From Azospirillaceae bacterium (lineage in GTDB: Bacteria; Pseudomonadota; Alphaproteobacteria; Azospirillales; Azospirillaceae): DNA of 64,000 nt. The position numbers and the translations under genes were made by a program. The stretch is taken from the NCBI GenBank assembly GCA_028283825.1, contig JAPWJW010000005.1:434001-498000 (forward strand), read 5' to 3'. Within the stretch, counting starts at the first letter, position 1. Each line of letters begins with the position of its first letter. Shown here piece by piece: positions 12,392 to 31,806 of this stretch. The notes beneath the pieces are model-generated. The model made no database searches. It saw only the letters and a program-made list of their open reading frames with translations, and was not told the DNA's origin.

Positions 12392-13291
12392 ATGGCGATC
12401 AGCCGGTTGGAAGAAATCGTCTTCGCGGTCAACGACTTGGGTGAGTGTGCCCGCTTCTGCGAAGATTTCGGCCTGGTGCGGTTGAGCGCTGGGGACGACC
12501 GTATCGTCTTCCAGACGGCGACCGGCCAGCGCATCGTCTGCGCGGCGGTGGACAGTCCCGGCCTGCCGGCTGGCGTGGTTCCGGGTGCCGGCATCCGTGA
12601 GGTGGTGTGGGGCGTGTCGGACGCCGCCGACCTGGATTGGATCACGGCGGAACTGTCGCGCGACCGCGCCGTGACGGTGGATGGGGACGGCACTGTGCAC
12701 AGCGTGGATGAGACCGGCTTCGCCATCGCCTTCCGGGTGCAGACGCCGTTGTCCGCCACGGTGGACCGGCGCCTGATGAACACCTATGGCCATACGGAAC
12801 GCTATAACGCGGCCCTGTCCTCCTACGGCCAGGCGGCACCCCGGCGCGCCATCCACGTGGCGCTGGACCTGCCCAAGGAGGGGCGGGAAAAGGCCCGCGC
12901 CTTCTATGAACAGCGCCTGCACTTCCGCGCGGTGGAGGAGGTGGTGCCCACCGGCGTCTTCCTGCAATGCGAGGGGGAGGAGGACCACCACCAGCTGTTC
13001 CTCTGCCACCGCACCGATCGGCCCGGCATCAACCACGTGGCGTTCGAGGCGCGCGACTTCGATGAGGTGGTGGAGGGCGGCAACCATCTGGTGGAAAAGG
13101 GCTGGAAGGAGGCGCGCCGCCTGGGCCGCCACACCCTGGGCTCCAACGTCTTCCGTTTCTTCCACACGCCCATCGGCTGCCGTTTCGAATATGTCAGCGA
13201 CATGGACAAGGTGGAAAAGGGCATCCCCACCCGCGTCTGGGAAACCAGCCCGCCGCATCATCTGTGGATGATCAAGACCAACGCGGATTGA
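12392..13291 (+). CDS. two-domain VOC protein, type I extradiol dioxygenase-like
   Basis: Protein of 299 residues with two vicinal-oxygen-chelate domains, the size and layout of catechol 2,3-dioxygenase. The N-terminal domain (about 5-120) lacks metal ligands; the C-terminal domain (about 150-270) keeps a His-His-Glu triad: H155 ('AIHVALD'), H215 ('INHVAFE') and E266 ('CRFEYVSD'). The C-terminal pattern 'FHTPIGCRFEY' resembles the extradiol dioxygenase signature. Strong GGGAGGGG upstream. It would open a catecholic ring or act on a related diketone. Its neighbours, a FAH-family hydrolase and further VOC and cupin genes, support a ring-cleavage role. The substrate is not deducible. Confidence 0.82.
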   Translation: MAISRLEEIVFAVNDLGECARFCEDFGLVRLSAGDDRIVFQTATGQRIVCAAVDSPGLPAGVVPGAGIREVVWGVSDAADLDWITAELSRDRAVTVDGDGTVHSVDETGFAIAFRVQTPLSATVDRRLMNTYGHTERYNAALSSYGQAAPRRAIHVALDLPKEGREKARAFYEQRLHFRAVEEVVPTGVFLQCEGEEDHHQLFLCHRTDRPGINHVAFEARDFDEVVEGGNHLVEKGWKEARRLGRHTLGSNVFRFFHTPIGCRFEYVSDMDKVEKGIPTRVWETSPPHHLWMIKTNAD

Positions 13292-13307
13292 TTATGAACG
13301 GCGATGG

Positions 13308-13342
13308 CGCCCCCGCCGGCCAGCGGGGGCGTTGTTGTTTTG
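13308..13342 (+). terminator. Rho-independent terminator after the VOC gene
   Basis: Perfect 9-bp stem CGCCCCCGC / GCGGGGGCG with a 6-base loop, followed by TTGTTGTTTT. Confidence 0.8.
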
Positions 13343-13361
13343 GACACTTCAAACGCCGGGC

Positions 13362-13476
13362 GCCCGCATCCGCGGGCTTGGCTTATCCTCGATTTCCAGT
13401 CCGCCTGCGGCTCCCCGAAAATCTCCGGCACCCGCAGTCGCGGGCTACAGCGGCGTGGGACGCGTCCCACGCCGCT
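13362..13476. repeat. palindrome-rich intergenic repeat unit (REP-like)
   Basis: It contains a hairpin GCCCGC-atcc-GCGGGC (13362-13377). A direct repeat, CCCGCATCCGCGGGCT (13363-13378) and CCCGCAGTCGCGGGCT (13431-13446), has its copies 68 bp apart. A perfect 28-bp palindrome at 13449-13476 is centred on GGGACGCGTCCC. The palindrome lies 4 bp beyond the cupin stop on the minus strand and could terminate it. The composite look suggests a dispersed extragenic element. Confidence 0.55.
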
Positions 13477-13480
13477 GGTC

Positions 13481-13900
13481 TTATTTCTCCTCCGCGCCCA
13501 TCAGATCGGCGGGGGACAAATGCACCACCGTCTCGCCGGTGTCGGCGAAGGTGCGTGACACGATGGGGGAGCTGTAGACCCACAGGATGCGCATCGGCGC
13601 GTCGCCGGTGTTGCGGAAGCAGTGCATGCGGTTGGCGGTGATGTAGGTGGTGTCGAACGGCACCAGCGGCGTCACCACGCCATCGATCTCCACCTCGCCC
13701 TGGCCTTCCAGCAGGGTCACCTGCTCATCGCAATTGTGGGAATGCATCGGCGCGCCCTGTCCCTTGGGATAACAGCTCATGCCGGTGGTGAATTGCGCGC
13801 CCGGAACCTTGCTGGGCACCACCAGCGGCCAAGTCTCGATACCGCTGCCGCGTGAAATGACTTTGACGTCATCGATCTTGATGATTTGGGCGATACTCAT
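13481..13900 (-). CDS. cupin-domain protein
   Basis: Single-domain cupin of 139 residues. Motif 1 is 'PMHSHNCDEQVTLLEGQGEV' with ligands H53, H55 and E59; motif 2 contains 'ANRMHCFRNTG' with H93. The complete 3-His/1-Glu set implies a metal-dependent dioxygenase, isomerase or sensor fold. The start at 13900 follows GGGGAGGGGACC and was chosen over longer in-frame extensions that reach into a purely intergenic-looking stretch. It is divergent from the MFS-FAH-VOC operon and convergent with the VOC dioxygenase gene. Small cupins of this kind often accompany ring-cleavage pathways. The reaction is unknown. Confidence 0.85.
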   Translation of the reverse strand: MSIAQIIKIDDVKVISRGSGIETWPLVVPSKVPGAQFTTGMSCYPKGQGAPMHSHNCDEQVTLLEGQGEVEIDGVVTPLVPFDTTYITANRMHCFRNTGDAPMRILWVYSSPIVSRTFADTGETVVHLSPADLMGAEEK

Positions 13901-14271: not shown

Positions 14272-15588
14272 ATGACAAGTGCGCCTGACTTGCGCAGCGC
14301 CGACGGCAGCGGTTGGAAAATTGCGGTCTTATATGGGTTCGGCGTCACCGCGGCCATGGCGGTCAGCGAGGCGGTGCCGGTGTTGAGTTCCATCGCCCGG
14401 GAATTCCATCCCCCCTCCCATGCCGCCGTGGGGGCGGTGCTGTCGCTGCCGTCGCTGATCGTGGCGCTGGGCGCCCTGTTCGTGGGCTGGCTGGTCGACC
14501 GGTTCGGGGACAAGCCCTTCATCTTCGCCGGCGCCATCCTGGCCGCCCTGGGCGATGGCGTGTCGGCCCTGGCGCCCAGCCTGAACGTGCTGTTCGTGGG
14601 CCGTGTCATCTCCGGCGTCGGTTACGTCCTGGTGGCCATCGCTGCCGTCACCATGCTGGTGCGTGTGACGGCCGGCCCGCGCCGGCGCTTCGCGCTGGCC
14701 CTATGGTCCAGCTTCGTGCCCATGAGTTTCATCGTGCCCTTCCTGGCGGCCGGCCTGATCCAGGCCTCGGGCTCCTGGCGCTGGGCCTTCGGCGGCCATG
14801 CCATCCTGCTGCTGCTGTTCGTCGCCATCGGCGTGCCGGCGCTGCGCCGGGCCCAGCCGGCGCCCACTGGGGTGCTGCCGTCGCGCACGGCGGGGCTGAA
14901 GGCGGTGTTGCGCTCCCCCTGGCCCTATGCCCTGGGCATCTCCTTCGGGGCGGACGCCGCCTTGCAGACCGGCATCATGGCCGTGCTGGCCCCCTATCTG
15001 GCCAAGCGGTATGGCGTGTCGGAGGTGTTGGCCCAGAACTGCAACGTGGTGGCCATGGCGGTGAACATCGCCGGTTGCCTGCTGGTGGGCGTGCTGATCA
15101 ACCGCCGGGTTCCGGCCTGGCTGATCGGTGCCGTGGGCACCATCGTCACCGGCGCCGGGGCCGCCGCGATCTTCGCCGCCGACCTGGGTTTTGAGGGTGC
15201 GGTCGCGGCCAGTTGGGTCTTCACCTTCGGCAGTGGCCTGCTGGTCGGCATGTGGGCCCTGCTGCCCGTCTGCGCCCCGTCGCCCAGCAGTGCCGGCGCC
15301 ACCAGCGGCCTGGTCACGCAGATCACGCTGATGGGCGTCCTGGCCGGCGCGCCGCTGGCCTTCTCCGCCATGGCCGCTCCCACGCCCGGCCCCATGCTGA
15401 CCTTCATCGGCCTCAGCCTGCTGATCAACCTGGCGGGCCTGCCGGTGTGGCTGCGCGCCACCGCCCTGCACGCCGCCCCGGCGACGGCACCCGGCCTGCG
15501 CGACGTGCCGGCCCCCACCCGCGACGGCAGCAGCACCTCCTCCCGCAGCCGGATCGAGCCATTGACCCGGCCGGAGGCCACCCGATGA
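14272..15588 (+). CDS. MFS transporter (12-helix, probable substrate importer)
   Basis: Major facilitator protein of 438 residues. The start at 14272 follows GGAGGT; a longer in-frame start at 14206 lacks a ribosome site. Motif A-like 'GWLVDRFGDKPF' lies between helices 2 and 3, and 'GRVISGVGYVLVAIAAVTML' is in helix 4. Twelve hydrophobic segments are apparent, and the tail (about 395-438) is polar, rich in Thr, Ser and Arg. Its stop overlaps the start of the FAH-family hydrolase as ATGA, so it is co-translated with catabolic genes and likely imports the pathway substrate. It resembles the cyanate/aromatic-acid transporter branches only loosely. Confidence 0.88.
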   Translation: MTSAPDLRSADGSGWKIAVLYGFGVTAAMAVSEAVPVLSSIAREFHPPSHAAVGAVLSLPSLIVALGALFVGWLVDRFGDKPFIFAGAILAALGDGVSALAPSLNVLFVGRVISGVGYVLVAIAAVTMLVRVTAGPRRRFALALWSSFVPMSFIVPFLAAGLIQASGSWRWAFGGHAILLLLFVAIGVPALRRAQPAPTGVLPSRTAGLKAVLRSPWPYALGISFGADAALQTGIMAVLAPYLAKRYGVSEVLAQNCNVVAMAVNIAGCLLVGVLINRRVPAWLIGAVGTIVTGAGAAAIFAADLGFEGAVAASWVFTFGSGLLVGMWALLPVCAPSPSSAGATSGLVTQITLMGVLAGAPLAFSAMAAPTPGPMLTFIGLSLLINLAGLPVWLRATALHAAPATAPGLRDVPAPTRDGSSTSSRSRIEPLTRPEATR

Positions 15589-16364
15589 AGCTCTGCCGCT
15601 TCCTGCATCAGGGCAGCCCCCGCTTTGGCCGGGTGGAGGGGGAGGTGATCGTGCCGCTGGACGGCACCTTCGCCGATGGTTGGCGGGAGGGGGGCGGCGC
15701 CGTCGCCCTGTCCGGCACCACCCTGCTGGCCCCGTCCATCCCCAACACCTTCTTCTGCGCCGGCCTGAATTATACCGGCCACATCCAGGCGGCCGCCGCC
15801 AAGGGTTACCAGGCCGCCAAGGTGCCGACGCGGCCCGACATCGGCTATCGCGCCAACAACGCCCTTTCCGGCCATCTGGCCGACATCGTCCGGCCCGCCG
15901 ACATGGAGGGCAATTTGGAATATGAGGGCGAACTGGTGGCCGTCATCGGCCGGCCCCTGCGTCACGCCAGCCGGAATGAGGCGCAGGCCGGCATCTTCGG
16001 CTGGACGGTAGGCAACGACGTCAGCGCGCGGCAGTGGCAGCGCAGCGACCGCACCTTCTGGCGCGGCAAGAACGCCGACACCTTCAAGCCCATGGGCCCA
16101 TGGATCGAGACCGACTTCGATCCCGCCGGCGCCCGCACGCGGGTGATCATCAACGGCGTGCAGTCCAGCGAGTACGGCACCGATTCCATGATCTTCAGCG
16201 CCGTCGACTTCATCGTCGAGATCACCCGCTACATCACCATGGTGCCGGGGGACATCCTCTGGCTGGGCACCGACGCCACCCACGCCATGAACGTGGGCGA
16301 TCTGGTGGAGGTCGAGGTGACGGGTCTGGCCACCCTGGCCAACCGGGTCGTGGCGGAAAAGTAA
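15585..16364 (+). CDS. fumarylacetoacetate hydrolase (FAH)-family protein
   Basis: Divalent-metal enzyme of 259 residues that cleaves or isomerises acylpyruvate-like diketo acids. Metal ligands of the fold are visible as E114 and E116 in 'LEYEGELVAVIGRP' and D145 in 'GNDVSARQWQ'; 'GPWIETDFDPAG' and 'TMVPGDILWLGTDA' are the usual later motifs. The ATG at 15585 overlaps the MFS stop. Homologues include 2-hydroxyhepta-2,4-diene-1,7-dioate isomerase, acylpyruvase and ring-cleavage-product hydrolases. With an extradiol-type VOC enzyme nearby, it may process the ring-cleavage product. That link is inference. Confidence 0.92.
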   Translation: MKLCRFLHQGSPRFGRVEGEVIVPLDGTFADGWREGGGAVALSGTTLLAPSIPNTFFCAGLNYTGHIQAAAAKGYQAAKVPTRPDIGYRANNALSGHLADIVRPADMEGNLEYEGELVAVIGRPLRHASRNEAQAGIFGWTVGNDVSARQWQRSDRTFWRGKNADTFKPMGPWIETDFDPAGARTRVIINGVQSSEYGTDSMIFSAVDFIVEITRYITMVPGDILWLGTDATHAMNVGDLVEVEVTGLATLANRVVAEK

Positions 16365-16424
16365 GCAATGCCTGCCGGCGGATACCGGTGCCCGCCGACT
16401 GAGGGACGTATTAGGGAGAAAGTA

Positions 16425-16826
16425 ATGAGCAACAAACCCCATTCGATTCACCACGTGAACTTCCCCATGCGCGACCGGGAAACCACGAAGGAATGGTACT
16501 GCAAGGTGTTCTCGATGAAGTGGGTCGATCCCAAGAGCAACACCGACGTGCTGCTGCTGACCCGGGGCGGGTTCGACCTGCATTTCACGCCGGTGCCGGA
16601 GGACCAGTGGCACCGCATGGCGCCGTCGCACTTCGCCATCGAGGTGGAGGATTGGGACGGCTTCCTGGCCCATCTGAATGAGCTGAAGGTGCGCCACAGC
16701 ATGACGGTGGAGCGGCCGCAGAACAACTCCCGCTACTGCTACATCGCCGACCCGAACGGCCACACCATCGAGCTGACCTACCACGGCAAGCTGCACACCG
16801 AAGCCTCGGTGAAGATGGAAGGCTGA
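16425..16826 (+). CDS. single-domain VOC (glyoxalase/dioxygenase superfamily) protein
   Basis: Small protein of 133 residues. The start at 16425 was chosen because AGGGAG lies just before it; an upstream in-frame start overlaps no ribosome site. Ligand candidates are H10 ('IHHVNFPM'), H69 ('SHFAIEVED') and E116 ('HTIELTYH'), giving a complete VOC metal triad if it dimerises. It lies 60 bp after the FAH gene and is presumably in the same operon. Glyoxalase, dioxygenase or isomerase chemistry is possible. Confidence 0.86.
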   Translation: MSNKPHSIHHVNFPMRDRETTKEWYCKVFSMKWVDPKSNTDVLLLTRGGFDLHFTPVPEDQWHRMAPSHFAIEVEDWDGFLAHLNELKVRHSMTVERPQNNSRYCYIADPNGHTIELTYHGKLHTEASVKMEG

Positions 16827-16892
16827 CCCAGCCATTTCTTTTCGTCGCCTGGCCGCCATGCCCGTTCGCCACCCGCACATTGGAACATTTGG

Positions 16893-17336
16893 ATGAGCAT
16901 TACCCATCAAGAGGCGAAGCTACTTGTCGCCGCAGCCCAGCAAAAGGCCGAGGCCATTGGCAAGCCCATCACCGTGGTGGTGGTGGATGCCGGCGGCTTC
17001 ATCGTCGTCAGCGAACGCCTGGACGGCGCCCGGCCGCTGACCCCCAGCATCGCGGCCAGCAAGGCCTACACCGCCGCCGTGATGCAGCGCCCCACCAACA
17101 TGCTGAAGCAATGGTGCAAGACCCAGCCGGAGTTCTTCGCCCAGGTGTCCACCATGGGCCACCTGCCCATCGTCGCCACCGACGGCGGCCTGACCCTGCG
17201 CCGGGGCGGCCCCATCCTGGGTGGCATCGGCATCTCCGGCGGCACCGGCGATGAGGACCAGCAGATCGCCGAGGCCACGCTGGCCGAGCTGGGTTACGAC
17301 CTGAACTTCGCCGAATGGAACAGCTTGCGCAAGTGA
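16893..17336 (+). CDS. GlcG/HbpS family protein
   Basis: Protein of 147 residues of the GlcG/HbpS (DUF336) family. It shows 'KPITVVVVDAGGFIVVSERL' (about residues 24-43), 'SIAASKAYTAAVMQRPT' and the Gly-rich 'GGLTLRRGGPILGGIGISGG' loop. Streptomyces HbpS binds haem; proteobacterial GlcG lies in glycolate and other oxidative catabolic operons and its function is unsettled. There is no signal peptide, so it is probably cytoplasmic. It is 66 bp after the VOC gene with a weak ribosome site, and 27 bp before the MetE-like gene. Confidence 0.9.
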   Translation: MSITHQEAKLLVAAAQQKAEAIGKPITVVVVDAGGFIVVSERLDGARPLTPSIAASKAYTAAVMQRPTNMLKQWCKTQPEFFAQVSTMGHLPIVATDGGLTLRRGGPILGGIGISGGTGDEDQQIAEATLAELGYDLNFAEWNSLRK

Positions 17337-17363: not shown

Positions 17364-18308
17364 ATGGCCAACAACTACACCTATCATGCCGACATCATCG
17401 GCGCGCTGATCCCACCGGAGATTGCCGAGGCGCCGTCATCCGCCACGGTGGATGAGTGGGTCAAACGCGCCCTGATCGTGCAGCGCGCCGCCGGATTGGC
17501 CGTCGTCACCGACGGTGAATATCGCCGCCATGGCCTGGCCGAGGCGCTGCTGCAACGCGGCCTGACCGATCAACCGCCCGCCCTGGTGGATGAGGAGGGC
17601 GCCTTCCTGCTGCGCGCCACCAATTTGGGCGTCAAGGTTTCGCTGCCCTCGCCCGCATCGGCCCTGCACCAATTGGCGCACAAGGCGGGACCTGGCTTCG
17701 ATGCGGCTGCCGCGCAGGCGGCTCTGGCCAAGGCCTACGCCGGTGAGATCGACGGCCTGCTGGCGGCGGGCATCGCCTACATCCAGTTCAACGGCTCCGC
17801 CTACGCCAAGCTGCTGGACGATGAATCCAAGCCCGGCGCGCTGGACGCCATCAAAACGGCCGCCGCCTTCGACGCGGCGGTGCTGGGCGCCGTCACGCGG
17901 CCGGACAAGGCCCGCATCGGCTTTCGCATCGGCCGCCCCGGTCCCAACCCGCGCTGGCCCACGGGTGTGGTGCCGGAGGGCCTGCAAACGCTGTTCAACC
18001 TGCCGGTTGACCGCCTGCTGCTGGACATCGGCTGCACAGATGCCGACTTCGGTTTCCTGGCGGCGGTGCCGGCCGACAAGCTGGTGGTGGTGGGCCTGAT
18101 CGACAGCACCAGGCAGCAGCTGGAAGAGCAGGACATTGTGCTGGAGGCCATCGACCGCGCGGCGGCGGCGGTGGGTGATGGCCTGCGCCTGGCGCTCAGC
18201 CCCCGTGGCGGCTTTCAGCGCGACAGCGGCCTGACCTGGGACGACCAGCGCCGCAAGCTGGAACTACTGGTGGACATCACCCTGCGCTGGTGGGGCTTCG
18301 CGATGTGA
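17364..18308 (+). CDS. MetE-like (cobalamin-independent methionine synthase C-domain) protein lacking zinc ligands
   Basis: Protein of 314 residues, the size of stand-alone MetE C-terminal homologues (UROD/MetE-like TIM barrel). Recognisable pieces are 'HADIIGALIPPE' (compare R-A-D-x-I-G-S-L-L-R-P), 'VTDGEYRRHGLAEAL' and 'GIAYIQFNGSAYAKLL'. The zinc-binding motifs of active methyltransferases are gone. The His-x-Cys segment is 'GFRIGRPGPNPRWP', and the C-terminal Ser-Pro-Gln-Cys-Gly-Phe has become 'LSPRGGF'. It is thus unlikely to activate homocysteine thiol through zinc. Last gene of the MFS-FAH-VOC-GlcG operon (preceded by GGGGAGGG). A different transferase, lyase or demethylase reaction in the catabolic pathway is plausible but unproven. 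Confidence 0.83.
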   Translation: MANNYTYHADIIGALIPPEIAEAPSSATVDEWVKRALIVQRAAGLAVVTDGEYRRHGLAEALLQRGLTDQPPALVDEEGAFLLRATNLGVKVSLPSPASALHQLAHKAGPGFDAAAAQAALAKAYAGEIDGLLAAGIAYIQFNGSAYAKLLDDESKPGALDAIKTAAAFDAAVLGAVTRPDKARIGFRIGRPGPNPRWPTGVVPEGLQTLFNLPVDRLLLDIGCTDADFGFLAAVPADKLVVVGLIDSTRQQLEEQDIVLEAIDRAAAAVGDGLRLALSPRGGFQRDSGLTWDDQRRKLELLVDITLRWWGFAM

Positions 18309-18319
18309 TTGGCCGCCTT

Positions 18320-18365
18320 AGAGCGGAACGCGATCAGGTGGAATCACCTGATCGCGTTCCGCTCT
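18320..18365. repeat. long perfect hairpin, copy 1 of a palindromic doublet
   Basis: Perfect 21-bp arms (18320-18340 and 18345-18365) around a 4-base loop GAAT. The left arm begins with the shared core TTAGAGCGGAACGCGATCA (18318-18336). It lies between the convergent MetE-like and creatininase genes and could terminate both, though it lacks a T tract. Confidence 0.75.
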
Positions 18366-18378
18366 ATCATGAACAGCT

Positions 18379-18420
18379 TTAGAGCAAGATGCGATCATGC
18401 CTGATCGCATCTTGCTCTAA
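18379..18420. repeat. long perfect hairpin, copy 2 of a palindromic doublet
   Basis: Perfect 19-bp arms (18379-18397 and 18402-18420) around TGCC. The left arm TTAGAGCAAGATGCGATCA matches copy 1 at 14 or more of 19 positions, with identical ends, so the two are members of one palindromic repeat family. Confidence 0.75.
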
Positions 18421-18472: not shown

Positions 18473-19225
18473 TTACAGAACCGGTGCTTCGGCCCCGAAG
18501 GCTGCGATCTCGCTCACCAGGCCGGTCACAGCCAGGCGCACCAGGTCGCCGCCCTTTTCCGGGGTGGCCAGGGCGGGGTCGGAGCCCATGCGGCCGTCGG
18601 GATGGCGGGCGCGGAAGTCCAGGGCCTCGCGGATGGGGCCGGAACCGGCGATCTGCGGCGTGTAGGTCGCACTCTTGATGGCGTCGGGGTAGGCCCACTG
18701 GGTGACGGCGATTTCCGACGGAGTGGCGTGGCTGCCGTGGCCCACCGGGAACTGGCGCTGCGCCAGGGCGTTGACGCCCGGCAGATCCCACCAGTTGCGC
18801 AGCTTGCAGGCGAAGCCGGCGGGGCGGCGGGCGAAGCTGGCCTCGGCATACAGTTCGGAGAAGGCGGCCTCGATGGTGGCGATGTTGCCGCCATGGCCGT
18901 TCAGGAAATAGATGCGCTGGAAACCGTGGCCGGCCAGCGACCGCACCCAATCGCCGATGGCGGCCATGAAGGTGGAGGGGCGCAGACTGATGGTGCCGGG
19001 GAAACCCAGATGGTGCTGGGCCATGCCGATGTTGAAGGTGGGGCCCACCAGGATGTCGGCGCCCGACTTGTGCGCCTCATGCGCGATGATTTCCGGGCAC
19101 AGCCAGTCGGTGCCCAGCAGGCCGGTGGGGCCGTGCTGCTCATTGGAGCCGATGGGGATGACGATCGCCTTGGACCGTTCCAGGAATTGGCCGACTTCGG
19201 CCCAGGTCGACAGGTGCAACAGCAT
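18473..19225 (-). CDS. creatininase-family amidohydrolase
   Basis: Metal-dependent amide/lactam hydrolase of 250 residues. Ligand residues of the creatininase fold are present: E29 and H31 in 'PIGSNEQHGP', D40 in 'LGTDWLCP', and 'LNGHGGN' (H111), followed by a Glu eight residues later. Family members open creatinine, formamides (riboflavin/mycofactocin-type) and cyclic amides. Strand switches here: it is convergent with the MetE-like operon and is followed downstream by none, so it is the last gene of the minus-strand series starting at lhgO. An amide or lactam step suggests a nitrogen-containing substrate for this island; that is inference. Confidence 0.9.
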   Translation of the reverse strand: MLLHLSTWAEVGQFLERSKAIVIPIGSNEQHGPTGLLGTDWLCPEIIAHEAHKSGADILVGPTFNIGMAQHHLGFPGTISLRPSTFMAAIGDWVRSLAGHGFQRIYFLNGHGGNIATIEAAFSELYAEASFARRPAGFACKLRNWWDLPGVNALAQRQFPVGHGSHATPSEIAVTQWAYPDAIKSATYTPQIAGSGPIREALDFRARHPDGRMGSDPALATPEKGGDLVRLAVTGLVSEIAAFGAEAPVL

Positions 19226-20512: not shown

Positions 20513-20653
20513 GGTAACCCTGGGTCCAAGGCGGCCCGCACCCGGGGCCGGGGGAACGATTAGGGCAGCCGGGTGCCCGCGCGTTAAGGCCCCTTGTCGT
20601 GAATGACAAGGTCACCCTCCGTGATCAATCCACCACCCGTCAGGCTTGACGGG

Positions 20654-21557
20654 TTAGTCCAGCGGATGGGTGCGGAACCACTGCACCAGGAACTTGACGA
20701 AGACGCGCACCTTTTCCGGGGTGGCGTCGCCGGGGGCGAAGGCGGCATAGAACGGGCGCTCGGGGATGCTCTCGTTGGGTAGCACGGCCACCAGGCTGCC
20801 GTCGCTCAAGTCCTTCTCCACCATGTGGAAAGGGATCAGGCCCACGCCCAGGCCGCTTTTCACCGCCTTGCTCAACACCAGATAGGTGTTGGAGGCGAAG
20901 GCGATCTGGCCCTTCACCCGCACGGTCTTGCCATCTTCCGTCAGGTCCCAATGCTGGTCTTCCGACTGGGTGACGCAGGGCAGGTTCTGCAGGTCCTTGG
21001 CCTTCGCCGGCTGGCCCGTGTTTCTCGATGAAGGCGGGGGAGGCCACCAGCGCGTAGCGGATGGCCGCGATCTTGCGCACCTTGACCAGGGAATTGGGGA
21101 TGCGCCGGGTCTGCAAGGCCACGTCATAACCGCGCTCGATGAAATCGTAGGTCTTGCGCGACATGCCGCCCAAATTCATCTCCACGGAGATGCGCGGGTA
21201 TTCCTGGCAGAAGGCGACGACGGCGTCGGCCACGTCCAGCGACCCGATCCACTTGGGCACGATGATGGACAACTGCCCGGCCGGCTCGGCGATGCGTTGG
21301 GAGATCTGTTTCTCGACGCCCGACACCTCTTCCAGGATGCGCTGGCAGAACTGGTAATAGGAACTGCCGGCCTCCGTCAGGCTGACGGACCGGGTGGTGC
21401 GGACCAGCAACCGCGTGGCCAGGTGGTTTTCCAGGTCCGATATCTGGCGGGACACCAGCGCCCGTGAGATGCGCAGGGAATGGGCGGCTTCGGTGAAGCT
21501 GCCCTGTTTCACGACCTGCACGAAGGTCGTCATCGTGCCGAAAAGATCCATCGCCAT
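20654..21557 (-). CDS. LysR-family regulator (+1 frameshift near 21015)
   Basis: Regulator of about 300 residues after correction. The N-terminal helix-turn-helix is 'FVQVVKQGSFTEAAHSLRIS', then 'RALVSRQISDLENHLATRLL', and the C-terminal effector domain ends '..KFLVQWFRTHPLD'. One extra base in 'ctGGCCCgtg' (21013-21017) splits the reading frame between '..ASPAFIEKHG' and 'QPAKAKDLQNLPCVTQ'. A second possible start is Met-3 at 21551, which has AGGA at better spacing. It belongs to the CrgA/AaeR-like branch that often controls aromatic-compound genes. It faces the same way as lhgO and is separated from the ABM gene by two terminators, so it is its own unit. Confidence 0.85.
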
Positions 21558-21784: not shown

Positions 21785-21808
21785 GCCCCCGCCGGGAAGG
21801 GCGGGGGC
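21785..21808 (-). terminator. Rho-independent terminator for the minus-strand operon
   Basis: GCCCCCGCC / GGCGGGGGC stem. Read on the minus strand it is followed by TTTTTT (complement of 21779-21784). It ends the operon whose last gene is the ABM protein. The rest of 21558-21780 holds the LysR promoter region: an A/T-rich stretch, GATATAATTGG, near 21710-21720 and a GGCCC/GGGCC hairpin around 21624-21640. Confidence 0.85.
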
Positions 21809-24729: not shown

Positions 24730-26172
24730 TCAGCGCAGCTTGTGCGAAACCCGCTTGGTCACGAGGTAGGCGTCCAGGGCCTCCGCACCGCCTTCGCGGC
24801 CATAGCCGCTTTCCTTGACGCCACCCGACGGCGCCTCGCTGACCGATCCGCCGGTGTGGTTGATCGACAGGATGCCGGCCTCCAGCCGGTCGGCCAGGGT
24901 GGCGGCGGTGGCGGCACTTTCCGTGAAGCCGTAGGCGGCCAGGCCGAAGGGCAGGCCGTTGGCGATGTCCAATGCTGTGTCCAGGTCGGTGAAGGGCACC
25001 ACCGGCGCCACCGGGGCGAACGGTTCCTCCACCATGATGCGGGCGTCCAGCGGCACCCGGTCCAACACCGTGGGCTCGAAGAAGAAGCCGCGATTGCCGA
25101 TGCGGTTGCCCCCAAAACGCACACGGGCGCCGCGCTCTTTTGCGTCGGTCACCAGTTGTTCGGCGGCGGCCAGGCGGCGGGCGTTGGCCAGCGGGCCCAT
25201 CTTGATGCCCTCGCCAAAGCCGTCACCCACCGGCAGGCTGCGCGCCGCGTCCACAAACGCGTCCACGAAGCGGTCGTGGATGCTTTCATGCACGATGAAA
25301 CGGCTGGGGGAGGTGCAGACCTGGCCGGCGTTGATGAATTTGCCGGCCGCACAGGCCTTGGCGGCGGCCACCGGGTTGGCGTCGGCGCAGACGACGACCG
25401 GGGCGTGGCCGCCCAGTTCCATGATGGCCGGCTTCATCCGCCGCGCCGCCTGTTCCGCCAGCAGCTTGCCCACGGGGATGGAGCCGGTGAACGCGACCAG
25501 CCGGATGATGGGCGACGCGATCAGGTGGGATGAGATGGCGGGCGGATCGCCGAACACCAGGTTCAAGACGCCCGCCGGCAGGCCCGCGTCGGCGAAGCAG
25601 CGCACCAGTTCCACCGCCGTGCCCGGCGTCTCCTCCGCCGACTTCAGTACCACGGAACAGCCGGCCGCCAGCGCCGCCGCGATCTTGCGCATGGGCGACC
25701 CGGCCGGGAAGTTCCACGGCACGAAGGCCGCCACCGGGCCGATGGGCTGGCGCTGCACGTACAGGCGCAGATTGGGCTCCGTCGGGATGATGCGGCCGTA
25801 GGCACGGCGCGCCTCCTCCGTATCCCATTCCAGGGTGCCGGCCACGCGCTGCGCCTCGCCGGTCGCTTCTGCCACCAGCTTGCCCTGTTCCAGGGTCATG
25901 ATGCGCCCGATTTCGGCCGAGCGTTCGCGCAGGATGCGGGCGGCGGTCTTCAGGATGCGGGTGCGCTCCGCCACCGGCGTGTCGCGCCAGAGGGCGAAGC
26001 CGCGCTGGGCGGCGGCCAGGGCGCGGTCCAGGTCGGCCACGCTGGCATGCGGCACGCGGCCGATGACCTCTTCGGTCGCCGGGTTGATGACATCGGTCCA
26101 GCGCTCGGCGGTGCCGTCGGTCCAGGCGCCGTCGATGTACAGCTGGATGCGGGGATAGCGGGCGCTTGTCAC
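24730..26172 (-). CDS. aldehyde dehydrogenase, succinate-semialdehyde dehydrogenase-like
   Basis: Aldehyde dehydrogenase of 480 residues. E252 in 'MELGGHAPVVVCADANP' and C286 in 'NAGQVCTSPSRFIVH' form the active site; 'FVPWNFPAGSPMRKIAAALA' and 'AFTGSIPVGKLLAEQ' are nucleotide-binding motifs. The pattern resembles GabD-type enzymes and other class I semialdehyde dehydrogenases. Its start overlaps the stop of the alpha/beta hydrolase gene as ATGA, so the two are co-translated. It may oxidise an aldehyde released by that hydrolase or by the TPP enzyme encoded upstream. Confidence 0.89.
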   Translation of the reverse strand: MTSARYPRIQLYIDGAWTDGTAERWTDVINPATEEVIGRVPHASVADLDRALAAAQRGFALWRDTPVAERTRILKTAARILRERSAEIGRIMTLEQGKLVAEATGEAQRVAGTLEWDTEEARRAYGRIIPTEPNLRLYVQRQPIGPVAAFVPWNFPAGSPMRKIAAALAAGCSVVLKSAEETPGTAVELVRCFADAGLPAGVLNLVFGDPPAISSHLIASPIIRLVAFTGSIPVGKLLAEQAARRMKPAIMELGGHAPVVVCADANPVAAAKACAAGKFINAGQVCTSPSRFIVHESIHDRFVDAFVDAARSLPVGDGFGEGIKMGPLANARRLAAAEQLVTDAKERGARVRFGGNRIGNRGFFFEPTVLDRVPLDARIMVEEPFAPVAPVVPFTDLDTALDIANGLPFGLAAYGFTESAATAATLADRLEAGILSINHTGGSVSEAPSGGVKESGYGREGGAEALDAYLVTKRVSHKLR

Positions 26173-26951
26173 GATGCCGTCTCCGGATAGACCTGCTTCA
26201 GGATCTGGTGGACGGCCGCGTTGAACACGTCCGGCATTTCCCAGTACAGCGAGTGCGGGCCGTTGGGCACGATGGTGAGGGTGGAGGCGGGCAGCAGCCG
26301 GTGCGCCTGGCGCACCGTGTCGGGGCGCAGCACGGCGTCGCGTTCCCCCGCCAGGAAGTGGATGCCGACGCCGGACGCCGCCACCTCCGCCGCCGTCGGG
26401 CCCTGGGCCTGCAGGTTGCGCAGGTCCTGCATCTTGGCGTGGTTGAAGGTGCCCATCTGCTGGAACAGGAACTTCAGCGCCGGCTGGCCGGATTGGAACT
26501 GCGGGGTCAGCAGGCGGTCGATCACCGGCAGCTTTTCCGCCTCATGCCGGTTGGCCTTCACCAGGGTGGCCAGTTCCGGGTCGCTGATCCCACCCACGGA
26601 ATGGGCCAGGATGACGCCGGACACCAGATCCGGCCGGCGCAGGGCCAGGCGCAGGGCCGGGGCGGCGCCGATCGACTGGCCCAGAATGGCGCAGCGGTTG
26701 ATGTCGGCGGCGGCCAGCACGGCCTCGATATCGTCGACGAAGTCCAGGCTGTCAGGGCCGCCCTCCACGGGGTCGGAATTGCCGAAACCCCGCAGGTCCA
26801 CCGTCACCACCTTGTACCATTGCGACAGGTAGGCGACCTGGCGGTACCAGGCGACATGGTGGCCGCCCGATCCGTGCACGAACAGGATCGCCGGGCCGCC
26901 GCCATGCGTCTCATAATAAATCTGGGTGCCCTTGGAATTCGCGTAAGCCAT
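26169..26951 (-). CDS. alpha/beta hydrolase
   Basis: Hydrolase of 260 residues with a complete triad: S93 in the nucleophile elbow 'ILGQSIGAAP', D205 in 'AGERDAVLRPD' and H233 in 'NGPHSLYWE'. The oxyanion region is 'LFVHGSGGHHVAWYRQ'. There is no signal peptide. The fold covers C-C hydrolases of meta-cleavage pathways, lactonases and deformylases. It lies 73 bp downstream of the TPP enzyme gene and is coupled to an aldehyde dehydrogenase. A ring-fission-product or ester hydrolase role is plausible. Confidence 0.9.
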   Translation of the reverse strand: MAYANSKGTQIYYETHGGGPAILFVHGSGGHHVAWYRQVAYLSQWYKVVTVDLRGFGNSDPVEGGPDSLDFVDDIEAVLAAADINRCAILGQSIGAAPALRLALRRPDLVSGVILAHSVGGISDPELATLVKANRHEAEKLPVIDRLLTPQFQSGQPALKFLFQQMGTFNHAKMQDLRNLQAQGPTAAEVAASGVGIHFLAGERDAVLRPDTVRQAHRLLPASTLTIVPNGPHSLYWEMPDVFNAAVHQILKQVYPETAS

Positions 26952-27024: not shown

Positions 27025-28740
27025 TTACTTGTCTACGTACGCATTGACGATGGCGGTGCGGCCATCCCGGACAGCGGCGATACCGTCGCGCAGCGCATCG
27101 GCCAGGGCCTCATGCGTCGTCGCCTCGGCGGTGTACATGCCGAAAGGCTGGCCGAAGGCCTCCAGCGGCGGCTGGCTCGACAGATCCACGCCGGGGAAGT
27201 CGCCCTCCGCCTTGGACACGCCGTCCGGATAGAAGCGCAGGTGGTTCAGCTGCATCGACAGATAGCGCTTGTTGTTCAGGATGACGATCAGCACCGGCAG
27301 CTTCTGATCCCGCGCCAGCGCCAGGCCCTGGACGATGGGATTGTAGAGGAAGGACCCGTCGCCCACCGTCAGGATGACCAGATCGTCGGGCTTGGCCATC
27401 TTCACGCCCAGCGCCACGCCGATGCCCTGGCCCAGGCCGCCCTGGACGTAGAAGTAACGCTGCGGCGTTTCCCAGATCAGGTGCTGCTGCATCAGCCGGC
27501 TGTGGGTGATGGTCTCATCCACGTAGGTGGCCTGGTCGCCCACAGCATTGGCCACCGCGTCTCGCAGGCTGGCGATGGCGTGCACGGCGCTCAGCCGCTC
27601 CGCCTTGGCCGCCTGTTCCTCCGCCTTGGCGATGCGGGCGCGCAACTCGACATGGAAGGCGGCGTGCCGTTCGGCGCGGGCGACCACTGCCGCCTTGTCC
27701 GTGGGCCCGAAGGCGGCGGCCAGATCCAGGGTGTGGGCGACGTCGCCCTCCAAATACTGGTCGGCGTACAGCACCTGGTGCACGGCGGCTGGCCGCTGCG
27801 GCACCTCATCGATCACCACGGTGGTGGCGTTTTGCGGCCGGTTGGACGGCGGGTACCAGGGGGCGCGGCAGTTGACCAGCAGCACCAGGTCGGCCGTGTC
27901 CTTCAGGGCCCCGATCTCACTGCCCCGGTACAGCGGGTGGGTCTTGGGGAAGTTGCCGCAGACATTGGCCTGCGGCTCGATCACCGGGATGCCGAAGGCC
28001 TCGGCGAAGCGCACCAGGGCGTGGAAGGCATCCGGATCGCGGCCGGCGGATTCCGTCATGATGACCGGCTCATTGGCCGTCCGCAGGCGGGCCACCAGGG
28101 TCTCGATCTCCGCATCCGGGCTGACCCGCTTGCCCGCCGGCGCCACGGGGGTGGGGTGGGGCGAGGGCGTCCACGGTTCCAGCAGCACCTCCACCGGGGC
28201 GTTCAGGTAGACCGGCGCCTGCGGGCTGCGCTGCGCGATTTCGCCCGCCCGCTTCACGAATTCATACAGCGTCTCGACGCCCGGAACCTGGGACGACCAT
28301 TTGACGATGTTGTCCACCAGGCCGTGCGGCCCGCCGACGACGCTGAGGTTGCGATACCATTGCGAGCCGGGGTCCACGCTTTTGCGCTCGCCATAACTGT
28401 TGCTGTCCGACGACAGCACCAGCAGGGGCAGGCCGGCCAGGTTGGCCGCGTGGATGCCGCAGGCGCCCTGCAACAACCCCGGCCCGGCATGGAGAAGGAC
28501 GGCCTGCATCCGGCCGGTGACCAGCGTGTACCCAATGGCCAGATCGACGGCCAGCGTCTCATGCCAGACGTCGATATAGGCCGGCCCGGCGACGCCCACC
28601 TTGCGCTGGCGGGCCACCGCCTCCCACACCGGGGCCCATTCGGACCCCGGGGAGCAGATCACGTAGTCGAGGTTCAGGGCCCGGAATGCCTCCAGCAGCC
28701 CCTCACCACCATCCTGATACACGCGTCCTTCTGCCATCAT
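27025..28740 (-). CDS. thiamine-diphosphate-dependent enzyme, acetolactate synthase/benzoylformate decarboxylase-like
   Basis: ThDP enzyme of 571 residues. The N-terminal pyrimidine domain contains the cofactor-activating Glu61 ('DVWHETLAVDLAIGY'). A central domain covers about residues 195-335, and the C-terminal pyrophosphate domain has 'TVGDGSFLYNPIVQGLALA' with 'ILNNKRYLSMQ', i.e. the GDG...NN motif. Length matches the ALS/decarboxylase family, but close resemblance to ilvB is lacking: no regulatory subunit is nearby. Two adjacent Met codons open the frame after AAAAGG. It probably decarboxylates a 2-oxo acid to an aldehyde, which the aldehyde dehydrogenases downstream could oxidise. That connection is inference. 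Confidence 0.88.
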   Translation of the reverse strand: MMAEGRVYQDGGEGLLEAFRALNLDYVICSPGSEWAPVWEAVARQRKVGVAGPAYIDVWHETLAVDLAIGYTLVTGRMQAVLLHAGPGLLQGACGIHAANLAGLPLLVLSSDSNSYGERKSVDPGSQWYRNLSVVGGPHGLVDNIVKWSSQVPGVETLYEFVKRAGEIAQRSPQAPVYLNAPVEVLLEPWTPSPHPTPVAPAGKRVSPDAEIETLVARLRTANEPVIMTESAGRDPDAFHALVRFAEAFGIPVIEPQANVCGNFPKTHPLYRGSEIGALKDTADLVLLVNCRAPWYPPSNRPQNATTVVIDEVPQRPAAVHQVLYADQYLEGDVAHTLDLAAAFGPTDKAAVVARAERHAAFHVELRARIAKAEEQAAKAERLSAVHAIASLRDAVANAVGDQATYVDETITHSRLMQQHLIWETPQRYFYVQGGLGQGIGVALGVKMAKPDDLVILTVGDGSFLYNPIVQGLALARDQKLPVLIVILNNKRYLSMQLNHLRFYPDGVSKAEGDFPGVDLSSQPPLEAFGQPFGMYTAEATTHEALADALRDGIAAVRDGRTAIVNAYVDK

Positions 28741-28756
28741 GTGACCTTTTCAGTTT

Positions 28757-28889: not shown

Positions 28890-28891
28890 GC

Positions 28892-29782
28892 TTACGCTGC
28901 GCGTTCGGAAAGCGGGACCTGGTCGCCGATGTCCCAGTCCAGCGTCTGGCACAGGCCCTTGCCCATCACCCACTCCAACTGGTCCGGGGTCAGGCCCAGA
29001 TGCTGGGTGAAATGCTCCACCGTCTGCTTGTAGGTCAGGTGCTTGGCATCCATCAGGCGGGTCAGGTCGGTGCCCCAGAAGCAGCGCTCCGGACCCATCT
29101 TCTTGATCAGGTTCAGTACGTAGGGGTTCAGGTTGGTGTAGGGGTAGGGATGGGTGGAATAACCCGGCAGCGCCGACACCTTGACGGAGATGTTCGGGTG
29201 CTTATGCAGGTCCGCCGTCTCATCGACCCAGTAGCCGATGGCGTCGTCGACGGAGCGCGCCAGGATGCCCATGTGGTCGATGATGATCTTCAGGCCCGGG
29301 TGGCGGGCGGCGATGGCGCCCAGTTCCGCCTTCCAGATGGGGGCGTGCACCATGGTGGGGAAACCCAGTTCTTCCGCGAAGGGCCAGTACCAGTCACAGG
29401 TGCCGTCGATCATCCAGTTGCGGTCCTGGGGACGGTGGAAGGTCAGGCGCGTGCCCTTGATGCCGGGGATGGAAACCCAGTCCCGCATCATCGCCTTGGC
29501 TTCCTCCGGCTTGTCCTGCGGCACGCGGGCCATGACGCCGAAACGGTCCGGGTACTTTTCCGACGCCTCCAGGCCGTAATCGATGCGGTCGCCTTCCCAC
29601 GACGGCGGGACGATGACAACGCGATCGACGCCGGCCTTGTCCATGTTCTCCAGGCACTCTTCATAGGTGAAGGGTTCCAGGCGGTGGCCGTTCAGCAGCA
29701 TGCGTTCGCGCGCGCCGGGGATCCACGGGCGATCCGGAGTTTCGTCTTTCCAGATATGAACTTGGGAGTCGGCGATCAGCAT
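28892..29782 (-). CDS. amidohydrolase 2-family metal-dependent hydrolase
   Basis: TIM-barrel hydrolase of 296 residues. The start at 29782 ('MLIADSQVHIWK', with the D-x-Q-x-H metal motif) was chosen over an upstream in-frame start whose peptide is unlike the family. Further metal and active-site residues sit in 'TMVHAPIW', 'IIIDHMG' and 'CFWGTDLTRLM' (D). The family includes 2-pyrone-4,6-dicarboxylate lactonase, ACMS decarboxylase and lactonases. It differs too much from LigI to be called that. It lies upstream of the TPP enzyme on the minus strand and 223 bp downstream of the ferredoxin gene; lactone hydrolysis or decarboxylation is the likely chemistry. Confidence 0.87.
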   Translation of the reverse strand: MLIADSQVHIWKDETPDRPWIPGARERMLLNGHRLEPFTYEECLENMDKAGVDRVVIVPPSWEGDRIDYGLEASEKYPDRFGVMARVPQDKPEEAKAMMRDWVSIPGIKGTRLTFHRPQDRNWMIDGTCDWYWPFAEELGFPTMVHAPIWKAELGAIAARHPGLKIIIDHMGILARSVDDAIGYWVDETADLHKHPNISVKVSALPGYSTHPYPYTNLNPYVLNLIKKMGPERCFWGTDLTRLMDAKHLTYKQTVEHFTQHLGLTPDQLEWVMGKGLCQTLDWDIGDQVPLSERAA

Positions 29783-30005
29783 AGTCTCATCCGTTTCGTT
29801 GTTATGGCAGTGGTGACATCGCTCCCGTTCATTGGTAGTCGAGGGGGCCAAGGGGGTCGAGGCGGCTTCTCGTTGAAATATTGGTGCTGATAAGTGAACA
29901 ATGCCGCCGGGGCGCGGGGAAGATCGAAGGCGCGCCGGCCCTATAAAAACAGCGGCTTAGCGGCCGTTTCGATTTGCCGGTTTTGTGCGATGCACAACGA
30001 AAACT

Positions 30006-30323
30006 TCAGTCATCTGGCGCCAGCGTGGCGCGAATGCCGTCCAGCGCGTCGGTCAGCCGTATCTGGCAGGACAGGCGCGAGGTCGGCTGGCGGTGCTGGG
30101 ACAGGCCCAACAGGCGGTCCTCCTGCGGGCTCGGCGGTGCCAAGTCCTTGAAATGGCGCCCATCCACATAGACGTGGCAGGTGCCGCACGACAGGCCGCC
30201 GCCGCACAGGCCGAAAAAGTCATCCGGTTCGCGCAGGCGGATGGCATCCAGCGCGGTGGTGCCGGCCGGCACCTCGACCGTGCCCATGCTGCCGTCGCGA
30301 TGGATGACCGTCAGTCCAGGCAT
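30006..30323 (-). CDS. [2Fe-2S] ferredoxin
   Basis: Electron carrier of 105 residues. The cluster ligands are C40, C46 and C49 in 'FGLCGGGLSCGTCHVYV' plus C86 in 'SRLSCQIRL', the C-x5-C-x2-C...C spacing of the adrenodoxin/putidaredoxin group used by cytochrome P450s and ring hydroxylases. The beginning 'LTVIHRDGSMGTVEVPAGT' fits a beta-grasp ferredoxin. No oxygenase or reductase gene adjoins it, so its partner must be elsewhere. It is flanked by 223 bp and 155 bp non-coding stretches, the latter without visible structure. Confidence 0.93.
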   Translation of the reverse strand: MPGLTVIHRDGSMGTVEVPAGTTALDAIRLREPDDFFGLCGGGLSCGTCHVYVDGRHFKDLAPPSPQEDRLLGLSQHRQPTSRLSCQIRLTDALDGIRATLAPDD

Positions 30324-30478
30324 GAATGGTTCCCCCGATTATTGTGCGGCGCACCCTGGGTTATGGGGCCGGCAGGGTAATCCTGGCGCGGCGGCGGCCG
30401 GGGCGGAAGCCGGATCGTGCGCAACCTAATGTTCAAAGGCTGATCGTCGCCCGACAGGCTGCCCCCGCGACGCCTATA

Positions 30479-31699
30479 TCATAACTTTATCGCGGGTCCG
30501 GGCGGTGGCCCGGCCATCAACTGATCGATCAGTGCCTGGTACAGCCGGGTGGGCCGGAACCCTTTGCGCAAGGTCAGGCCGATGGCGCGTGAGGTGTCGG
30601 CCTGCGCCTCGCACAGCAGGGCCAGGATGCCCAGATCCAGTTCCAGCTTGATCTGCCGGGGGGAGATGGGGGCGACGAAATCACTGCCCAGCAGCAGGGC
30701 GCGGGTGGCGACCAGCGATCCGCATTCCACCACCCGCGCCGGCGGCGGGCAGCCCTGGGCGGCCAGGTGGCGCTCGAATGTTTCCCGCCCGGGGGCGCCC
30801 TTGCCTGCCAGCACCCAGGTCAGGTCGGCCGGCAGGTCACGCAAGGGGCGGGGCCGGCCGCCGGGACCCAGCAGGGGGTGGCCCGGCCGCACGGCGATGG
30901 CCAGTGGGTCCTGGAAGGCCGGCACCTGCACGATGTCGTCCACTGGCGCCGGGCTGCGCAGTGCGCCGACGATGATGTCCACCTGGCCGTGCAGCAGGGC
31001 TCGCAGCTGTTCGGCATAGGGGCCGTCGATCACCCGCACCTGGGCCTCCGGATACCGCGCCAGCGTGGCGACGATGCCGTCCGGCACCCAGCCGGAACGG
31101 GACAGGGGCAGGGCGCCGATCAGCAGGGCGCCGTCCACCCGGCCCTCCAACTCGCGCGCGGCGTCCACCGCCAGGCCGATCTCGCGGCGGCAGACGTCAC
31201 CGGCGCGGGCCAGCAGCCGGCCGTCCGGCGTGGCCTCACCGCTCGCCGCCCCCTGGCGCCACAGGCTGAGGCCCGTCACCGTTTCCAGGTCGCGCACCAG
31301 GCGGTGGACGTTGGGTTGCGACACGCCCAGCGACCGGGCGGCGGCCATGAAACTGCCGGCCGTCAGCAGGGCCGACAGCGCCGCCAGCTGCCGTTCGGTG
31401 ATCAGCCGGCGGAAGTTGGGCGGCAGGTCAGGGTGGGCCCGGCGCCGGCGCAGCGTCGCCTCCGCCCCGTCGATGTGGGCGAAGGCCACCTCCACCCGCT
31501 GGCAGAACAGGGCGCCGGCGTCGGTGGCGTGCATGCCGCGGCTGGATCGGTGGAACAGCGGCACGCCCACCGTCCGCTCCAGCGAGGCGATGGCGGCGGT
31601 CAGGGCCGGCTGGGTGGCGCCACCCTCGGCACTGGCGCGGGTGGCGCTGCCGGAACGATGGACGGCCAGGGCGGCGTGGAGCAGGCGGAACTTCAGCAT
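30479..31699 (-). CDS. LysR-type regulator with two N-terminal helix-turn-helix domains
   Basis: Regulator of 406 residues, about 100 longer than normal LysR proteins, because two LysR HTH segments are present in tandem. The first spans about residues 2-60 ('HRSGSATRASAEGGATQPAL', 'SLERTVGVPLFHRSSRGMHA'). The second spans about residues 100-160 ('TAGSFMAAARSLGVSQPNVH', 'RLVRDLETVTGLSLWRQG'). A normal effector-binding domain follows (about 185-395). The start at 31699 ('MLKFRLLH') was chosen to match LysR N-termini; a start at 31741 would add 14 residues. It is divergent from ligK with about 107 bp between, so it probably controls the lig operon and perhaps the minus-strand catabolic genes. 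Confidence 0.87.
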   Translation of the reverse strand: MLKFRLLHAALAVHRSGSATRASAEGGATQPALTAAIASLERTVGVPLFHRSSRGMHATDAGALFCQRVEVAFAHIDGAEATLRRRRAHPDLPPNFRRLITERQLAALSALLTAGSFMAAARSLGVSQPNVHRLVRDLETVTGLSLWRQGAASGEATPDGRLLARAGDVCRREIGLAVDAARELEGRVDGALLIGALPLSRSGWVPDGIVATLARYPEAQVRVIDGPYAEQLRALLHGQVDIIVGALRSPAPVDDIVQVPAFQDPLAIAVRPGHPLLGPGGRPRPLRDLPADLTWVLAGKGAPGRETFERHLAAQGCPPPARVVECGSLVATRALLLGSDFVAPISPRQIKLELDLGILALLCEAQADTSRAIGLTLRKGFRPTRLYQALIDQLMAGPPPGPAIKL

Positions 31700-31806
31700 G
31701 GCGATGAACCTATAACACAGATCTATGGCGTGGCGCGCCAATCGCCGTAACGCCCGCCGCCGCCCCGGGGCTAAGGTTCGGTCAAAGTTCGAAAGGGAGA
31801 GCCCCC

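Follow-up and report, generated by a model that had tools for sequence, protein, structure and literature searches.

We analysed a 64,000-nucleotide stretch of an Azospirillaceae bacterium genome, hereafter the window (G000:C5:434001-498000, where G000 is the organism's own genome of 7.16 Mb in 5 contigs), in which positions 12,392 to 31,806 are dense in catabolic genes. In our reading, to which we give about an even chance of being right, this region is no single operon but a mosaic of catabolic modules that were acquired independently or rearranged and that act on aromatic or oxygenated compounds from plants. It builds on the gene families, on the conserved catalytic residues of an extradiol-type dioxygenase (VOC299) and the presumed ones of a thiamine pyrophosphate (TPP) enzyme, on gene order, and on the duplication of a three-gene set, VOC152-MetE-like-VOC299 (the triad). 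The triad is the most unusual part of the region: it is probably a rare ring-cleavage gene set, present twice in the genome, and a modest but genuine novelty.

A first-pass annotation of the same DNA had proposed a single catabolic island, possibly for a nitrogen-containing ring. It is partly supported: the catabolic genes are real, the unit was wrong and the substrate guess weak. Pfam and NCBIfam scans recover the families it named (VOC, FAH, creatininase, alpha/beta hydrolase, TPP enzyme, two aldehyde dehydrogenases, Ldh2, L-2-hydroxyglutarate oxidase, two LysR and MetE-like) at about the positions it gave, and this content speaks strongly for a catabolic role. The genes are real and not chance frames; a [2Fe-2S] ferredoxin at 30006-30323 had been overlooked. 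Genes were called from open frames with a strong third-position GC bias; the starts listed below are ATG codons chosen to suit the start of the family, as judged from translations.

12392..13291, + strand: VOC299, two-domain extradiol-type dioxygenase, triad member (Pfam Glyoxalase)
13349..13480, no strand: dispersed intergenic repeat family 1 (many matches in the own genome and congeners, genus-wide)
13481..13900, - strand: cupin protein (Cupin_2, 3.9e-16; relatives in 30 plasmid records)
14272..15588, + strand: MFS transporter, first gene of the + operon (MFS_1, 5.3e-33)
15585..16364, + strand: FAH-family hydrolase or isomerase, with a 4-base overlap with the MFS stop (FAA_hydrolase, 5.7e-54; nearest PDB entry 3qdf)
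16425..16826, + strand: VOC152, small VOC protein, triad member (Pfam; own-genome paralogue)
16893..17336, + strand: HbpS-like protein (PF03928, 2.4e-31)
17364..18308, + strand: MetE-like protein, triad member, lacking methionine-synthase zinc ligands (Pfam/NCBIfam; alignment to 1ypx)
18318..18420, no strand: tandem palindromic hairpin pair, dispersed repeat family 2 (DNA search and folding)
18473..19225, - strand: creatininase-family hydrolase, genus-wide (PF02633, 7.7e-62)
19313..20512, - strand: L-2-hydroxyglutarate oxidase, L2HGO (NF008726, 8.3e-173, above cut-off)
20640..21557, - strand: LysR regulator whose frame changes near codon 185 (Pfam; translation)
21785..21808, - strand: terminator-like hairpin downstream of Ldh2 (terminator scan)
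22167..23210, - strand: Ldh2-family 2-hydroxyacid dehydrogenase (PF02615, 5.7e-92; nearest PDB entry 2x06)
23228..24688, - strand: aldehyde dehydrogenase 1 (ALDH1), like 2-oxoglutarate semialdehyde dehydrogenase (KGSADH), below cut-off (Pfam/NCBIfam)
24730..26172, - strand: aldehyde dehydrogenase 2, like succinate semialdehyde dehydrogenase (SSADH), below cut-off (Pfam/NCBIfam)
26169..26951, - strand: alpha/beta hydrolase, PcaD-like, below cut-off (Pfam/NCBIfam)
27025..28740, - strand: TPP enzyme, benzoylformate-decarboxylase-like (Pfam/NCBIfam; PDB relatives)
28892..29782, - strand: Amidohydro_2 protein, lactonase- or decarboxylase-type (PF04909, 1.9e-34)
30006..30323, - strand: [2Fe-2S] ferredoxin (TIGR02007, 32.6 bits against a cut-off of 132.1; ISC-type match, 7e-8)
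30479..31741, - strand: LysR protein with two helix-turn-helix (HTH) stretches, putative regulator of the gallate-type operon (two HTH_1 stretches)
31807..35506, + strand: gallate/protocatechuate lower-pathway operon of LigK/GalC, GalD, DUF1932 dehydrogenase and amidohydrolase (NF006731, NF033377; Amidohydro_2)

Strand and spacing, from which we deduce the transcription units, divide the stretch into about six of them on both strands. On the + strand, VOC299 is followed by the inverted cupin gene and then by the operon MFS-FAH-VOC152-HbpS-MetE-like (14272-18308), where the initial 4-base overlap gives way to gaps of 60, 66 and 27 bases. The main - strand operon runs ferredoxin-amidohydrolase-TPP enzyme-alpha/beta hydrolase-ALDH-ALDH-Ldh2; its first two gaps measure about 220 and 150 bases, and its last five genes lie closer, 73, 41 and 17 bases apart and overlapping once. 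Beyond the hairpin downstream of Ldh2 (21808-21785; nine G-C pairs, then TTTTTT) lies a further - strand unit, LysR-L2HGO-creatininase. One operon was rejected on the strand changes and spacing, which together with this hairpin split the formerly proposed island into several units. Dispersed repeats are present at two unit borders. The hairpin pair at 18318-18420 consists of perfect palindromes with arms of 22 and 19 bases, folds at -84.7 kcal/mol (z -13) and has numerous high-identity matches in the own genome and the congeners. At gathering level, Rfam has no match in the window.

The triad recurs contiguously, on the - strand, on another contig of the same genome (G000:C3:707452-709865), where it surfaced as two weak, closely spaced own-genome matches in a DNA search. 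Identity between the copies is 64% for VOC152, 38% for the MetE-like protein and 46% for VOC299, whose C3 paralogue lies in stretch L071. Judged by eye, the C3 copy is flanked by XRE-type regulator, GNAT-like and MarR-like genes. No further gene of the 12-32 kb region was matched beside it, bar weak LysR and weak MFS matches about 18-20 kb away; a protein 50% identical to the MFS protein of window positions 10068-11546 is also found at that distance.

A VOC152 model built from two sequences, both own-genome copies, retrieved these two copies alone from 377 phylum genomes and from 82 family genomes at 1e-22, and again alone from 387 class genomes (386 others) at 1e-11; each draw includes the own genome, and the draws overlap in part. 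Among plasmid records, none matched VOC152 at 1e-4, and the MetE-like protein had no match at 1e-15 and three weak ones at 1e-3. The plasmid records opened for VOC299 contain no match to either gene (1e-6 and 1e-4). A genome search with the MetE-like protein at 1e-35 returned 1 of 299 genomes, a count that is no evidence of rarity because so strict a limit missed the genome's own paralogue. Throughout, the E limits of the genome searches (1e-65, 1e-60, 1e-55, 1e-50, 1e-35, 1e-22 and 1e-11) are our own choice, and weaker relatives may exist.

The profile of the MetE-like pair matches the core methionine synthase 1ypx (E 1.3e-21). Aligned to 1ypx, at the positions we take to be its zinc ligands (HxC, Glu and a C-terminal Cys), the MetE-like protein does not keep the set: the HxC motif is absent and the C-terminal zinc Cys is lost, SPQCGF having become SPRGGF in the window copy and SPRHGL in the paralogue. 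A role as methionine synthase is therefore not expected. Its single-sequence model was unusable (predicted local distance difference test, pLDDT, 36.5). Speculatively, the triad might be an undescribed, self-contained ring-cleavage unit, in which the MetE-like protein would have given up its metal and would work as a C-C lyase or decarboxylase on the extradiol cleavage product; we think this unlikely. If the triad is such a unit, the zinc-less MetE-like protein gains a testable catabolic job, and a further branch is added to the ring-cleaving VOC family seen in flavonoid-type and dihydroxylation-type clusters.

In VOC299, residues H155, H215 and E266, together with H200 and H247, are invariant in six aligned sequences; they correspond to a 2-His-1-carboxylate site and second-sphere histidines, roles that we assume from homoprotocatechuate dioxygenase. 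The protein matches 52 of 72,556 plasmid records at 1e-15. VOC proteins from Azospirillum B510, Massilia, Bradyrhizobium, Diaphorobacter and Burkholderia share 34-38% identity with it along most of its length. We opened ten records of our choosing (six from 20 listed of 52, four from 25 listed of 50). Six of them have a Rieske/2Fe-2S protein and a flavin adenine dinucleotide (FAD) oxidoreductase encoded close to the VOC gene, an arrangement that excerpts of two papers describe for fde/ifc flavonoid clusters (PMC11069340, PMC8552027). Two others, from Novosphingobium, show other surroundings again, and in the remaining two the VOC gene belongs to a Rieske-SDR-ALDH-TPP-aspartate dehydrogenase cluster. 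In full, this cluster reads Rieske-SDR-VOC-ALDH-TPP-aspartate dehydrogenase-cupin and is found on plasmids of Caballeronia (L078, 1-11639) and Acinetobacter (L082, 5513-16846); kynurenate-like chemistry is our guess for it, and our literature search on kynurenate found nothing apt.

The right-hand module centres on the TPP enzyme. Its best solved relatives are benzoylformate decarboxylases (1.3e-27; 100 bits to the best PDB match), and both the 'HE' Glu and the 'LHA' His, which we presume to be catalytic, are kept in the alignment; the protein is nonetheless distant, the best NCBIfam score being 352.4 bits against a cut-off of 456 (PRK08327). The two aldehyde dehydrogenases score 506.9 against 770 bits for KGSADH and 440.3 against 646.35 for SSADH. 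A route to 2-oxoglutarate via a semialdehyde, as formerly suggested, is weakened by these shortfalls and by the position of L2HGO (574.7 bits against an equivalog cut-off of 299 for NF008726) in another unit. Solved relatives of Ldh2 include sulfolactate, malate and ureidoglycolate dehydrogenases. The amidohydrolase at 28892-29782 has no PDB sequence relative at 0.001; its single-sequence model is weak (pLDDT 49.5, TM-scores below 0.5) and resembles ACMSD-type decarboxylases and PDC hydrolase/COG3618. The ferredoxin is 32% identical to a 2Fe-2S protein beside a P450 in stretch L084.

To the right of this module, GalC and GalD of the operon at 31807-35506 exceed their cut-offs (NF006731, 365.5 against 179 bits; NF033377, 522.5 against 440). 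Residues 13-408 of the double-HTH LysR align at 34% with the LysR beside the gallate cluster of a congener (G005), which assigns this regulator to the gallate-type operon. Both LysR genes credited to the island are present, the second going with the neighbouring operon and the first carrying a frame change. GalA is not beside the operon; its one strong own-genome match is at C1:1683480 (58%), three others being weak (E 3e-5 or worse). In the congener (L062, 2362-10431), GalA stands beside GalB-C-D, with a second, 77% identical creatininase gene nearby.

A comparison of positions 12100-32000, as DNA, with 7 genomes of the genus (the own genome and 6 congeners) bears on the creatininase gene. 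Among the matches listed, it is the one gene that all 6 congeners share at 86-90% DNA identity (in G001 in pieces spread over two contigs); other gene-sized congener matches listed are weaker, 65-77%, and comprise ALDH-like stretches and the second copy of creatininase in G005. Five congener creatininase loci (L056, L058-L061) hold no other window gene at 1e-12. The genes that neighbour creatininase in G005 lie in G000 at C1:1055776-1060632 and C2:528815-536743, creatininase itself being on C5: the gene moved here, or its surroundings were broken up. Being genus-wide and placed elsewhere in congeners, it says nothing about the island, and the proposal of a nitrogen ring with amide or lactam opening, which rested on this call, loses its main support. 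It also scores 71.9 bits against a true creatininase cut-off of 235. Here lies a useful correction: the presence of a creatininase family member among catabolic genes is by itself no evidence for a nitrogen-ring substrate.

Within the mosaic, we infer the substrates, the order of the steps and any link between the modules as follows. The MFS protein would import the substrate, VOC299 would cleave a catechol-type ring in extradiol fashion, and FAH, VOC152 and the MetE-like protein would process the ring-opened product by isomerisation, C-C hydrolysis or decarboxylation. For the TPP operon, the best reading, by analogy with mandelate catabolism, is the simplest chemistry, from 2-hydroxyacid to 2-oxoacid, aldehyde and acid: the amidohydrolase and the alpha/beta hydrolase may release a 2-hydroxyacid, Ldh2 would oxidise it to the 2-oxoacid, the TPP enzyme would decarboxylate this to an aldehyde, and the aldehyde dehydrogenases would yield the acid. 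The product may enter the adjoining gallate-type operon. The TPP operon is a candidate route for shortening 2-hydroxyacids, next to a lower pathway of the gallate type.

Several observations weigh against the mosaic as we describe it. No gene reveals the substrate, and the left and right modules are linked by position only. Among the enzymes of 12.4-30.3 kb, in the NCBIfam lists shown, L2HGO alone reaches a curated cut-off. No ring hydroxylase was called among the scanned genes of 10-36 kb, so VOC299 would need a ready-made diol. We know of no mandelate dehydrogenase in the Ldh2 family, and the ferredoxin has no adjoining reductase or oxygenase. Finally, the terminator scan found 15 sites against 10.3 +/- 3.8 in shuffled sequence; this is near background, and the hairpin alone is therefore weak evidence for a unit boundary.

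The region might instead serve one undescribed compound through a dedicated pathway, with the ring opened by the left part, the side chain shortened by the right part and the gallate-type lower pathway last; this is the earlier proposal stripped of its nitrogen, and it seems to us rather unlikely. The genes do lie within 20 kb, and a Rhizobium leguminosarum GLR17 plasmid cluster (L083, L085) joins the VOC, FAH, cupin, alpha/beta hydrolase, Ldh2 and P450 ferredoxin families, with Ldh2 37% and FAH 27% identical to ours; the VOC match there, however, reaches 24% over part of the length, and the alpha/beta hydrolase and cupin are unmatched at 1e-3. The six or so units on both strands, and a creatininase and a double-HTH LysR that belong elsewhere, also speak against it.

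The distribution of single genes points the same way. At E<=1e-65 the TPP protein occurs in 7 of 386 class genomes, the own genome included, the six others being 43-47% identical; in the 32-40 kb around these six, an amidohydrolase homologue in G278, about 5.4 kb from a TPP homologue, is the sole other window-gene match at 1e-10. Among 99 relatives, the own genome alone matched at 1e-60, and 10 of 82 family genomes (own included) matched at 1e-50, the other nine copies being 31-32% identical. At 1e-55, 9 of 241 class genomes match the amidohydrolase, one of them being the own genome; the relatives are 37-44% identical to it. Nine stretches around these (4.8-20 kb, 8 genomes) and two around TPP relatives of 30% in the family held no shared set. 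Weak single neighbours of amidohydrolase homologues were a TPP match of 22% (L046) and proteins 25-27% identical to the MFS protein of 10068-11546 (L051, L052). In two family genomes (L054, L055) the 30% TPP relative has, at a distance of about 2 kb, an ALDH with 34-35% identity to ALDH1; this fits an aldehyde-forming TPP enzyme. Searches of genome contigs added two distant Clostridia loci for the TPP protein and those of plasmids one partial match; amidohydrolase relatives occur in 19 plasmid records, and the two opened show transporter-rich or plasmid-backbone neighbourhoods. The whole set is together in none of the stretches read elsewhere, and the relatives of the TPP enzyme (6 genomes) and amidohydrolase (8 genomes, 9 stretches) stand without the rest of the set, so the conserved synteny expected of an island does not appear.

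A cluster for degradation of the flavonoid A-ring, of fde/ifc type, is improbable. VOC299 does resemble VOC proteins encoded near Rieske/2Fe-2S proteins and FAD oxidoreductases, in neighbourhoods most of which contain FAH and some a cupin. In a tree of 16 rows of our choosing, though, VOC299 and its paralogue form a group of their own (100/99) outside the fde-type clade of six rows (100/99), while the order of the groups is left unsettled. Simple fde membership was rejected on this placement. Nor were an FAD monooxygenase, a Rieske protein or an oligopeptidase-type hydrolase called among the genes scanned at 10-36 kb.

If unrelated catabolic genes had simply gathered by chance on a plastic replicon, without any joint function, this would suit the dispersed repeats at two unit borders, the displaced creatininase gene and a gene content that sets the region apart from the 6 congeners; we consider it highly improbable, as the tight operons (4-base overlaps, gaps of 17-73 bases) and the duplicated triad favour function within modules. 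A nitrogen-heterocycle pathway with amide or lactam opening is the least credible of all: membership of the creatininase family is certain (PF02633) and relatives of VOC299 also sit in the Rieske/aspartate dehydrogenase/TPP clusters of Caballeronia and Acinetobacter, but the creatininase gene is genus-wide, unlinked in congeners and below cut-off, the TPP protein of L078 shows no more than 23.5% identity, along part of its length, and L082, where the TPP gene runs off the stretch end, gave no TPP match.

Elsewhere in the window, frames also change in a BadF-like gene (45841-46900, at about 46500; named by eye), in addition to the LysR gene of 20640-21557, and a LeuC-LeuD frame (4141-6213) appears joined through a short out-of-frame stretch at about 5490-5670. 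With several such places in one window, assembly indels are as likely as pseudogenes. Positions 38824-63811 carry glycan-use genes, namely a TonB receptor, beta-glucuronidase/galactosidase-like and Xyl3A-like xylosidase genes (the enzymes below cut-off) and, by eye, a fucosidase-like gene.

A literature search of limited extent found nothing describing these gene combinations. The nearest text was an excerpt on the bzf cluster, in which a TPP decarboxylase and an aldehyde dehydrogenase convert benzoylformate to benzoate (PMC7760541); an excerpt on syringate (PMC12314914) offered no match to this gene set.

Compared with known systems, the TPP operon shares with the mandelate/benzoylformate clusters (mdl, bzf) a TPP enzyme, here a putative decarboxylase, accompanied by an aldehyde dehydrogenase, and the Glu and His kept in the alignment. 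The mdl pathway employs a racemase and a flavin mononucleotide (FMN) mandelate dehydrogenase, neither of which is among the families called at 10-36 kb. Here Ldh2 replaces the FMN enzyme, the TPP protein is distant, and an amidohydrolase, a hydrolase, a ferredoxin and a second ALDH are added. With the fde/ifc clusters, as excerpted in PMC11069340 and PMC8552027, the region has in common the two-domain VOC dioxygenase, FAH and cupin families; it differs in its separate VOC group in the tree of 16 rows, and in that neither an FAD monooxygenase nor a Rieske partner was called. The MetE-like protein is recognisably related in sequence to core methionine synthase (MetE, 1ypx type) but has lost the zinc HxC and the last Cys. 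The gallate-type operon keeps the order GalC, GalD, DUF1932 dehydrogenase and amidohydrolase of the galABCD cluster in G005 (L062), differing in that GalA does not adjoin it. Three Rhizobium plasmid records matched Ldh2 at 1e-50, of which two were opened and one extended (L083-L085). Both opened records place the Ldh2 relative (37% in each) beside VOC, alpha/beta hydrolase and P450/ferredoxin genes, and one adds FAH and a cupin; FAH matches at 27% in L083 and the ferredoxin at 32% in L084. They differ from the window in a VOC that is weakly matched in one of the two (24%, part length), in an alpha/beta hydrolase and cupin without a match at 1e-3, and in that the TPP enzyme, VOC152 and the MetE-like gene are not in the stretches read. 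As judged from these sequences, the Rhizobium clusters are a parallel in content, with no shared descent of the set.

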